From positions 1 to 23,398 of the IMG/VR virus record IMGVR_UViG_3300001683_000079: 23,398 nt of DNA; one strand, written 5' to 3'. The translations under genes and the position numbers were made by a program. This stretch comes from a virus. The notes beneath the pieces are model-generated. The model saw only the letters and a list, made by a program, of their open reading frames with translations, was not told the DNA's origin and did not search any database. This document shows positions 19,908-23,239 of this stretch, in pieces (the first letter of the stretch is position 1; the number at the start of each line of letters is the position of its first letter).

Positions 19908-20771
19908 ATGATTACTCAAGACTTAATGGAAATGACAACAAATAATGTAGTTGGTAAGATGGAAAAATATGGTGCTAACTGGTTGCGTTCATGGGTTGGC
20001 GAATCTGAATTGCCAATCAATTGTGAAACCAACAAGGCATACACAGGAATAAATTTATTTATTTTATTGGGTACTGAAATGTCATCGGGCAAATGGGGAA
20101 CTTTCAATGCTTGGAAAAGATTAGATAAATCTATACGCAAAGATGAGAAGTGTACAAATATTGTATGGTTTAAAATGTTGAAGTCTAAAACAGAAGTAGA
20201 CGAGAACGGAAACCCTACTAAATTTCCTATCATGAAAATGTATAGGGTGTTCAATGAATCACAAACTGTTGGATATGTTAAGGAAGTTAAAACAGAGGGC
20301 GAAACTTTCGCAAGGTCTGACGCTGATTTGTGGATTAAAAATACTGGTGCTGTTATTGATTATAATAAATCATCTGCTTTTTATAATCCTAATCAAGATA
20401 AAATAGGTATGCCATCAATGGAAAGTTTTATAAAAACAGATGACGCAACAGCAGAACAAAATTTTTATGGAACTTTATTTCATGAACTCACGCATTGGAC
20501 AGGACACACGAGCCGAAACAATCGCTTGATAAAAAACTCAAGCCGAACTGATTATGCTTTCGAAGAGTTAGTCGCTGAACTTGGTGCGTGTTTCCAGTCC
20601 GTACATTTTGGAATTGAAACTGCAGAAGTAAACGCTGACCATATAAAATATTTAAATGGTTGGCTCAAGGCTTTGAAAGATGATAACAAATTTATATTCA
20701 AAGCAAGTGCAAAAGCAAATCAATCAATAGCATTTTTAAATACTCTTCAAGAGATTAAAAAAGTTGCTTGA
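19908..20771 (+). CDS. ardC: ArdC-like antirestriction protein (ssDNA-binding plus zincin domain)
   Basis: The 287-residue protein has the ArdC N-terminal domain: GANWLRSWVG, TNKAYTGINLFILL, WGTFNAWKRLDK, IVWFKMLKS, then MKMYRVFNESQTVGY. The C-terminal zincin-like domain follows, with H192-ELT-H196 (HExxH) and the downstream YAFEELVAELGA block (residues 216-227) supplying the third ligand. Plasmid and phage ArdC proteins protect incoming DNA from restriction; the metallopeptidase fold is conserved although its action is not fully settled. AAGGAAA precedes the ATG. It is a monocistronic cassette with its own promoter and terminator. Catalytic residues are intact and length matches ArdC (about 290-300). 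Confidence 0.88.
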   Translation: MITQDLMEMTTNNVVGKMEKYGANWLRSWVGESELPINCETNKAYTGINLFILLGTEMSSGKWGTFNAWKRLDKSIRKDEKCTNIVWFKMLKSKTEVDENGNPTKFPIMKMYRVFNESQTVGYVKEVKTEGETFARSDADLWIKNTGAVIDYNKSSAFYNPNQDKIGMPSMESFIKTDDATAEQNFYGTLFHELTHWTGHTSRNNRLIKNSSRTDYAFEELVAELGACFQSVHFGIETAEVNADHIKYLNGWLKALKDDNKFIFKASAKANQSIAFLNTLQEIKKVA

Positions 20772-20818: not shown

Positions 20819-20849
20819 AGAAAATTTCCCCTCTAATACAATGTGCTTT

Positions 20850-21097
20850 TTCATTGGCTGATAGGCTCTTGACTTTGCTCTTGACTTGGCTCTTGCTTTA
20901 CTATGACTGAGCGATTAGCGAATCATTCTTAGCTGAGCGTAGCGAAGCGAAATTTTTTTTTTGAAATCGTTAAGGATTCGCCTAGTCGGCTCAGTATTGG
21001 CAGAGCAAATCAAGAGCGATAAGGTTTCGCCTGTGTCGGCTCAGTACAGCAGAGCAAGAGCCATCTTGCAAAGAAAACAAGGTGCGAAAATTTGAGA
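20850..21097. repeat. Repeat-rich spacer 2 with inverted copies and a long hairpin
   Basis: Noncoding stretch between two convergent terminators, so probably little transcribed. It has two direct copies of the dispersed repeat (20970-21016, starting TTAAGGATTCGCC, and 21019-21062, starting ATAAGGTTTCGCC) and one inverted copy (about 20864-20935). ACTGAGC (20906-20912) pairs with GCTCAGT (20989-20995) and CGAATC (20919-20924) with GATTCG (20975-20980), giving an imperfect stem of about 20 bp across a loop with a T10 run. The 25-base repeat shared with spacer 1 is at 21051-21075. No gene seen. Confidence 0.7.
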
Positions 21098-21703: not shown

Positions 21704-22000
21704 TTAACTTCCTATTCTATTAATTAAAATAGTACTTTCCATATCCCAAGTACGGTGTCCTGTTCTCTCGGTGTGTCGCTTTGCTTGGGCGTTCATTTTT
21801 TTATAATCGCCCTTTGAATATACACCGATAGCGTATTGACTTCCGTTTGGGTATTCTGCTTTCAGAACATAAACCACTATAAATTCATCAAAGCCCATTT
21901 CATCAACCTTTGTGAAGTGATGTATCTCGGCTTTAAGATTATCATTATCTAGTATTTTTTGTTCTAGTCTTTTAGTGTTTGTTAGTTTCTTGTCAGTCAT
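21704..22000 (-). CDS. Unknown protein, 98 residues
   Basis: The protein begins MTDKKLTNTKRLEQKILDND and has a well-formed mixed segment (FDEFIVVYVLKAEYPNGSQY, then AIGVYSKGDYKKMNAQAKRH). CGGAG lies 8 bases before the ATG. It is the first gene of a three-gene cassette with its own promoter and terminator. The beta-hairpin-like core with a basic helix suggests a small folded domain, but no family is recognised. Confidence 0.62.
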   Translation of the reverse strand: MTDKKLTNTKRLEQKILDNDNLKAEIHHFTKVDEMGFDEFIVVYVLKAEYPNGSQYAIGVYSKGDYKKMNAQAKRHTERTGHRTWDMESTILINRIGS

Positions 22001-22048
22001 CTTTTTTACTCCGTTAAATTTAAAAGGTCTTTCTTTGTAACTGGCTCT

Positions 22049-22054
22049 ATTATA
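22049..22054 (-). promoter_or_regulatory. Candidate extended -10 promoter of the three-gene cassette
   Basis: In minus sense TATAAT with TGT just before it (extended -10). The -35 box is poor. It is about 50 bases upstream of the 98-residue gene. Confidence 0.5.
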
Positions 22055-22139
22055 ACAAATTGGTAGAGGTATAGAAACTTTCTATAGAACCACAGGCAAC
22101 GACTTACTAGTCCAGATTAAAAGACAGTTATAAAAATCC

Positions 22140-22169
22140 TTGACAAAAAACCCATTTATAATGTAAAAT
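22140..22169 (+). promoter_or_regulatory. Plus-strand sigma70-like promoter facing the hairpin array
   Basis: TTGACA (22140-22145), 18-base spacer, TAAAAT (22164-22169). A consensus -35 box and one mismatch in the -10 box make it credible. There is no convincing plus-strand gene for over 650 bases downstream, so a transcript from here would be noncoding and run through the hairpin array. Confidence 0.5.
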
Positions 22170-22344
22170 CGGACAATGCTTTTAGAGATAAAAAGCCATC
22201 ACCAAAACAAGAGCATAAATATATTTCTAGTAATTTAAAATCAATGTGCTCTTTCATTGTAGATAATCTTTTCTTTTCATTCAAATATAATGCTTGATAT
22301 TCTATACCCCTCTTATATTTATATTGCTCTACAAAATTGCACAA
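22156..22344 (-). CDS. Possible gene remnant beside the hairpin array
   Basis: A 62-codon minus-strand frame reads YKYKRGIEYQALYLNEKKRL, then STMKEHIDFKLLEIYLCSCF, ending LSDFTL. Its only upstream initiator is a TTG immediately next to a stop inside the first hairpin, with no ribosome site; the internal ATG leaves 33 residues. The amino-acid composition is protein-like, so it may be the 3' remnant of a gene interrupted by the repeats. It may equally be a chance frame. Confidence 0.25.
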   Translation of the reverse strand: MCNFVEQYKYKRGIEYQALYLNEKKRLSTMKEHIDFKLLEIYLCSCFGDGFLSLKALSDFTL

Positions 22345-22726
22345 CTAAGCTTCGTTCCTCGCTAAGTTGTGCGTAAAGCTATAAGGATTCGCCTAATAGT
22401 CGGCTCAGTACAGCAAAGAAAGAGCGCACCAGCTACAAATATTTGCTGGTGTAGGCAAAAAAGCATAGCTTTTTTTATTCTTCTAGTCGGCTATAAGCCG
22501 ACACAAAGCATTGCCTGTAAAGAGCAATGCCGCTCTATTCTTTCGCTATGCTTTTACAGGCAATAGTTTCGGCTTAGTAAACTAAGCCGAAACACAAAGC
22601 CTTGTATTTTCTAAGCTATGCTTAGAAAATTAGTTTAATAGTTTCAGCTTCGCTGAAACACAAAGCCTTTTGCAAAGCTACAGCTTTGCAACTCCCCCGT
22701 AGGGGGAGGCTCATGCTTCGCTGAGC
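22339..22726. repeat. Dense tandem hairpin array
   Basis: Eleven inverted repeats lie in a row. They are: 22339-22372 (12-base arms, one mismatch), 22426-22452, 22457-22475 (AAAAAAGC/GCTTTTTT), 22486-22502 (GTCGGCT/AGCCGAC), 22510-22564 (12-base arms ATTGCCTGTAAA), 22566-22593 (12-bp, GTTTCGGCTTAG), 22606-22630 (11-bp, ATTTTCTAAGC), 22641-22659 (GTTTCAGC/GCTGAAAC), 22670-22691, 22692-22708 (CTCCCCC/GGGGGAG) and 22709-22726. Most loops are 3-4 bases. The last three abut with no spacer. A short separator ACACAAAGC follows three of the hairpins, and 22381-22425 is a copy of the dispersed spacer repeat. No gene is present in 22345-22852. Confidence 0.85.
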
Positions 22727-22783
22727 AGAGATATATTACCTCCAACGCACAAAAAACAGAGTTTGAACTAATAAGAAATAAAG

Positions 22784-22813
22784 TTTACTCACAAGAAACT
22801 TTTATGTTATAAT
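22784..22813 (+). promoter_or_regulatory. Extended -10 promoter of the terminase genes
   Basis: TTTACT (22784-22789), 18-base spacer, TATAAT (22808-22813) preceded by TGT (extended -10). The expected leader before the terminase small subunit gene is about 33 bases. Confidence 0.68.
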
Positions 22814-22852
22814 ACCCACAAGATAACTCTACTCTGAGCCTATAACAAAAAT

Positions 22853-23239
22853 ATGGCAGAAACTAAAAGAAAAGCAGGAAACCCTAACTTCCACAAAGGT
22901 ATGAAAGCCTTGAATGGAGTAGGTAGACCTAAAGGTTCTGTTAATAAGTTTACTGCTTTGGCAAGAGAGTTAATGTCAAATAAATCTCCAGAGATTGTAA
23001 AGAAGGTAATTGAAAAGGCAATGGAAGGAGATGTTCATTGTTTGAAGATGTGCTTAGATAGAATATTGCCTGTACAAAAGGCTATTGACTCTACACGAAC
23101 TAAGGCAGATGCCCAAGTTATAATTAATGTTTCCTCTCTGGAAAGCATACAGCAACAGCTAGATGTTACTCCAGAGGGTGAACTTATAGAACCCAAAGAG
23201 AAAAGTGATGATGAGGTTGTGGTGAATGTGAATGGCTGA
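22853..23239 (+). CDS. terS: Terminase small subunit-like protein
   Basis: The 128-residue protein starts MAETKRKAGNPNFHKGMKAL, followed by GVGRPKGSVNKFTALARELM. The GRPKGSVNK-T basic motif and the following helices (EIVKKVIEKAMEGDVHCLKM) are typical of small-terminase or DUF5681-like DNA-binding proteins that recognise the packaging site. The C-terminus is acidic (EPKEKSDDEVVVNVNG). No Shine-Dalgarno site is apparent, but a promoter lies directly upstream. It overlaps the large terminase start by eight bases, which supports the assignment. The hairpin array immediately upstream could contain the packaging signal (inference). Confidence 0.72.
   Translation: MAETKRKAGNPNFHKGMKALNGVGRPKGSVNKFTALARELMSNKSPEIVKKVIEKAMEGDVHCLKMCLDRILPVQKAIDSTRTKADAQVIINVSSLESIQQQLDVTPEGELIEPKEKSDDEVVVNVNG

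Follow-up and report, generated by a model that had tools for sequence, protein, structure and literature searches.

A fast-evolving hairpin array upstream of phage terminase genes, possibly a structured leader RNA

The Hairpin Array and Its Genomic Setting

The window analyzed here is a stretch of 23,398 nucleotides, bases 1–23398 of a 34,303-base viral record (IMGVR_UViG_3300001683_000079). It contains a dense array of hairpins (22339–22726), with leftward genes on one side, the closest starting at 22000, and the rightward terS-terL genes on the other (Table 1). The portal protein is ∼23% identical to those of HMO-2011-type phages, and comparison of the array and terS with cultured phages at the DNA or protein level revealed no similar sequence. 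A probable leftward promoter before the leftward genes occurs at 22045–22095 together with a dyad, TATAGAAACTTTCTATA (22070–22086), which is kept in several relatives and is a likely operator.

Table 1. Features of the hairpin array locus and of region B (window coordinates).
Feature	Position	Strand	Remarks
Promoter-like TTGACA-18-TAAAAT, directed into the array	22140..22169	+	Same, with 18-nt spacing, in about 18 genomes
CAATGTGCTCTTTCATTG hairpin, promoter-array interval	22242..22259	+	Similar word precedes region B
E1 hairpin	22339..22372	+	Fixed core, conserved internal mismatch, covarying outer arms
E2 element	22379..22408	+	Hairpin 22379–22399; conserved AAGGATTCGCCTAATAGTCGGCTCAG at 22383–22408
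F1 hairpin	22427..22451	+	Fixed distance from E2; six alternative stems among relatives, each fully complementary
Hairpin AAAAAAGCATAGCTTTTTT	22457..22475	+	Pair change relative to L116 compensated
Hairpin GTCGGCTATAAGCCGAC	22486..22502	+	
Hairpin GCATTGC-loop-GCAATGC	22508..22530	+	
12-bp hairpin	22566..22593	+	Diverged duplicate of 22641–22659
11-bp hairpin	22606..22630	+	
8-bp hairpin GTTTCAGCTTCGCTGAAAC	22641..22659	+	
9-bp hairpin	22670..22691	+	Next hairpin abuts
Terminal hairpin CTCCCCC-GTA-GGGGGAG	22692..22708	+	Stems vary among relatives
Last hairpin GCTCATGCTTCGCTGAGC	22709..22726	+	
Deeply conserved core	22702..22764	+	GGGGGAGGCTCAT, ~23 nt, ACCTCCAACGCACAAAAAACAGAGTTT; also in array-less relatives
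terS proximal promoter TTTACT-18-TATAAT	22784..22813	+	
Likely terS, 128 aa, DUF5681	22853..23239	+	Directly before terL
Region B, second structured block	20840..21066	+	E2 copies 20972–20994 and 21021–21044; converging genes around

Perfect hairpins (stem of 7 bp or more, loop of 3–11) number nine in the array and together hold 195 of its 388 bases, compared with a mean of 0.44 and a maximum of 3 in 300 dinucleotide shuffles, and no stretch of the same size in the rest of the window contains more than two. Imperfect or shorter hairpins (22339–22372, 22379–22399, and 22709–22726) bring the total to about twelve, and the eleven counted in the first-pass annotation, which had placed the array at the right coordinates, is therefore a fair figure; its statement that nearly every base belongs to an inverted repeat is somewhat overstated, with about 69% of the bases held in hairpins. 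Other details of that annotation are borne out, including the exact abutment of the last three hairpins, the separator shared after three stems (ACACAAAGC, whose only copies in the window are the three at 22501, 22592, and 22658), and the higher GC content of the arms (the array has a G+C of 0.43, its flanks have 0.28 and 0.29, and the window as a whole has 0.35). Folding of the array gave z = −10.86 on the plus strand and −10.87 on the minus strand, and the top three windows in a folding scan of the whole record all fall inside it.

A CRISPR array, already dismissed in the annotation, is rejected since identical direct repeats and regular spacers are absent, the direct repeats present being only short, diverged, and irregularly spaced. 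In line with the annotation, the array is likewise not a single terminator, with the intrinsic terminator scan giving one weak match within it (22521–22536) and none 3′ of the terminal hairpins. A coding frame had been named as evidence against a structure; the sole plus-strand frame is a 65-aa GTG ORF spanning the hairpins, which was rejected, and no convincing ORF crosses the array. None of the Rfam 15 covariance models (including GOLLD, ROOL, and CsrB) reached the gathering score in the window or 12 relatives, a permissive Rfam search returned chance-level scores only, and openly available papers yielded no account of this element.

Conservation and Turnover Among Relatives

Relatives were collected through the terS protein (80 contigs). 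Those bearing the array mostly have a terS about 75% identical or more to that of the window, and L084 (69%) also has strong hairpins; in distant relatives the array is absent altogether, and the hairpins are not a feature of all related genomes, which the annotation had set as a point against a selected structure. Conservation relative to the window is confined to two blocks, roughly 22297–22410, containing E1 and E2, and 22665–22843, containing the terminal hairpin pair, the conserved core, and the proximal promoter. The middle between them is unalignable, varies in length, and turns over completely between close relatives, while genomes that differ in their middle still share the position, order, and orientation of the outer hairpins. 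In 40–50 loci, E1 and E2 always point the same way as terS; their minus-sign entries come from contigs that had been counted before and recur as reversed copies, or from loci where terS was not located. Many relatives also have a long bulged hairpin (GGGCTAGAATAAGCCTAG... outside L040), which is inverted once, loop included, about 210–282 bases before terS in L040.

Pairing of the array is conserved among the array-bearing relatives while its letters change. For example, E1 has a fixed core, ACTA-GCT...TCGCT-AGT, mismatch included, around which only the outer arms covary (GCACA/TGTGC, GCGAC/GTCGC, GCGAT/ATCGC, GCGTA/TACGC, and GCAAC/GTTGC). Across 19 E1 sequences, 93.7% of cells are paired, and cells changed on both sides number 21 against 8.2 in shuffles, with almost none in slid controls; three adjacent pairs are swapped on both sides, and one-sided changes number 0 among 15 intact copies. 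Similarly, F1 follows a fixed linker and carries the stems CACCAGC, CACCAAC, GCCTAGC, GACTAGC, GCAATGC, or GCCAAAC, each with its own complement, around a mostly conserved loop (TAAACAAGTG in most). Against L116, the closest relative found, the window has three compensated double changes across F1 and the hairpin after it, with no pair broken. In 35 genomes, 92 distinct double changes are compensated and 40 broken, compared with 3–7 compensated and 6–16 broken in slid controls. The search for compensatory changes proposed in the annotation therefore favors a structure kept in most relatives, with one reservation, namely that the 5′ stem is broken in a single subclade (5 of the 19 E1 rows, one group of relatives), in which the arm GCTCA faces TTCGC or ATCGC.

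It is quite improbable that most of the array's middle arose as a functionless by-product of mutation and recombination, its palindromes formed and refined by template switching, duplication, and exchange in a spacer that separates gene modules. The complete replacement of the middle between close relatives, the diverged duplication within the array (22566–22593 and 22641–22659), the inverted hairpin of L040, and the E2 copies flanking variable accessory genes agree with such an origin, and template switching can also yield apparent compensation. Against it stand the constancy of the outer hairpins beside different middles, an E1 core kept with its mismatch while only the arms covary, loops that stay while stems change, weak folding found mainly where the promoter is degraded, and the observation that hairpins of the array type are not spread over the other intergenic regions of the record. 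The graveyard of palindromic elements offered in the annotation fits the outer hairpins poorly, because of their fixed order, orientation, and covariation, but could account for some of the hypervariable middle.

A pairing between AGGCTCA (22707–22713) and TGAGCCT (22835–22841, in the terS leader) was also considered; L016, L025, L029, and L036 do not retain the first partner, and this pairing is therefore unsupported.

A Conserved Promoter Sequence Directed Into the Array

The promoter aimed into the array has the consensus TTGAC(A/T)-18-TA(A/C)AAT, with an exact 18-nt spacer in about 18 genomes, and persists even where the upstream genes differ. In L016, L017, L020, L025, and L029, the place upstream of the array is taken by an ArdC gene rather than by leftward genes; E2 and the long hairpin then lie beyond ArdC, and the promoter still stands directly before the remaining hairpins. 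Genomes with a degraded −35 element fold less well (one-sided p 0.002, the compared genomes being related) and are mostly without strong folding, L034 being the exception, and every broken E1 with a scorable promoter belongs to these genomes. Since the compared genomes are related, the association between the −35 element and folding may reflect one event rather than several.

The second structured block, region B, lies between converging genes, is flanked on both sides by terminator-like hairpins, and contains two E2 copies of the same orientation. In L046 and L049, two pairs of its second E2 hairpin are compensated, and a promoter scan of the region found no plus-strand promoter. E2 copies in the record are restricted to the array and region B, and a search of 84,980 bacterial and archaeal genomes with the E2 pattern gave only three chance-like matches. 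An ArdC-like antirestriction gene (19908–20771; also in L016, L017, L025, and L029) differs in its place relative to the array from one relative to another, beside E2 copies, and the repeats may help in the exchange of accessory genes.

Comparison With Known Systems

The put RNAs of phage HK022 act in antitermination, are about 70 nt long, and form two stem-loops 3′ of a phage promoter (for putR, about 270 nt beyond the start), each genome having two related put copies (PMC9378689). E1-E2 has the same layout, a pair of hairpins within 69 nt located about 165 nt past the conserved promoter, although the E2 consensus hairpin is short, and E2 recurs in region B as put recurs in HK022. In contrast, put precedes early genes, whereas E1-E2 stands before the terminase genes and is followed by the hairpin array, and region B has no promoter that could be found. 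The likeness is one of layout, and E1-E2 can be called put-like by analogy rather than by membership.

Other systems share fewer traits with the array. The CsrB/RsmZ-type sRNAs also have tandem short hairpins over a few hundred nucleotides and, in csrB, strand-symmetric folding, but the array has no Rfam match, no repeated GGA loops, and no terminator after it; a CsrA-binding sponge RNA was rejected on the same ground, no GGA being found among the listed hairpin loops. GOLLD and ROOL are large, hairpin-rich, noncoding, and found in phages, as the array is, but the array differs in matching no Rfam model, in its hypervariable middle, and in its position directly upstream of terS. REP/BIME elements are similarly short GC-closed palindromes in intergenic DNA; the array, however, is confined to two places in a fixed orientation, and REP/BIME repeats were rejected because dispersed copies are absent, with copies found at the array and region B only and no convincing matches in bacterial genomes. 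Finally, cos/pac sites next to terS share the position of the array, which has a deeply conserved core beside it; these sites are not known to be hairpin arrays.

Possible Roles: RNA Leader or DNA Site

Among the three options offered in the annotation, the evidence most favors a structured noncoding RNA, through the covariation of the stems and the conserved promoter. In our judgment, there is about an even chance that the array is a new kind of structured RNA that evolves rapidly, most likely as the leader of the terminase operon and possibly with a put-like action. Transcription would proceed rightward from the conserved promoter (22140–22169) and produce a structured noncoding RNA; since no terminator was found between the array and terS, this transcript would most likely run on as a terminase operon leader of about 680 nt, although it could also be an sRNA that ends elsewhere. 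The fixed 5′ domain (E1 and E2) would carry the specific recognition, perhaps by working on RNA polymerase during elongation in the manner of HK022 put RNA, and the hypervariable middle would serve as a scaffold or spacer in which pairing matters and sequence does not. By analogy, put-like antitermination would be the most concrete form of this leader. Several observations speak against it, including the terS proximal promoter, which makes a long leader unnecessary for terS, the few G-U pairs, the equally good folding of the minus strand, the inversion in L040, the lack of a plus-strand promoter in the scan of region B, which shares E2, and the exception of L034 to the association between promoter and folding.

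An unlikely but more than negligible alternative is that the hairpins work as DNA, in an origin, packaging, or dimer-resolution region where a strand folds or cruciforms extrude beside terS. Internal G-U pairs are near-absent (0 of 60 in the stems of the window), one-sided stem changes have no excess of G-U over A-C, the array folds as well on the minus strand as on the plus strand, and small loops are mostly closed by C-G (45 of 60). The scarcity of G-U and the strand symmetry speak weakly for DNA, although both tests are weak by their own controls: csrB, a real hairpin-array RNA, folds likewise on both strands, making the strand difference in z a poor test of RNA against DNA, and a scan of G-T versus A-C mismatches could not separate rRNA controls from chance and therefore has no power as a strand test. 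Because of the GC-closed triloops, N4-type promoter hairpins were also considered; no N4 virion RNA polymerase homologue was noted among the scanned proteins.

The slot before terS also bears on a DNA role. In array-less distant relatives, this slot adjoins the same core (GGGAGGCTCAT...CCTCCAAnCCACAAAAAAC), which abuts the array where one is present, lies at a variable distance from terS, and is possibly a cos/pac or other DNA site. A cluster of DnaA boxes (TTATCCACA twice and ATATCCACA once) just before the core in L070 (4253–4318) and L074 (360–425), upstream of the terminase region, is likely to mark an origin. XerCD dif-like sites lie directly before the core, upstream of terS, in L118 (about 1670–1690; TTCGCATAA-TTTATC-TTATGTTAAGT), L121, L122, L060, and L064, with an 8-bp center in L060 and L064, and XerD-like arms are repeated around the dif-like site or core in L060–L077; the tailed-phage relatives with such sites may use the host XerCD. 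The slot is thus likely, on these motifs, to be a control region for DNA events in distant relatives, and the DNA reading of the array therefore keeps some probability, as does the replication or packaging site named in the annotation, the conserved core beside the array being a further reason. The cumulative GC skew of the record is lowest around 19–23 kb, though it follows gene direction. On the other side, the conserved promoter aims into the array and its loss accompanies loss of folding, and the record itself has only isolated one-mismatch DnaA boxes, with no clear cluster, and no dif-like site was found in it. Contig ends were tried as physical genome ends and rejected, since in these assembled contigs the ends near terS scatter and show no sharp packaging end.

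A broader proposal, which must be regarded as doubtful, is that the array represents a phage element of a new class, with selection keeping pairing rather than sequence and fixed end modules enclosing a hairpin cassette that is exchanged as a whole among close relatives; if true, the cassette would work, in RNA or single-stranded DNA form, when the phage turns to late genes and packaging. The region is covarying, structured, and linked to a promoter, in a phage group with no close relative found among cultured phages, and matched no described RNA family. As an RNA, it would offer a new way to control late and packaging genes, and as DNA, an origin or packaging region made of interchangeable hairpins. 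The keeping of pairing while sequence is swapped among close phages provides a natural experiment on what the array requires.

In addition, Fur-box-like palindromes (AATGATAATCATTATCATT and AATGAGAATCATTCTCATT) lie at or near the terminase promoter in L016, L025, L032, L033, L044, L045, L070, and L084, and another is found in L018 near 1350, pointing to possible iron-linked or other repressor control of the late genes. The window has AAAGTTTACTCACAAGAAACTTT at this position instead (22780–22802).
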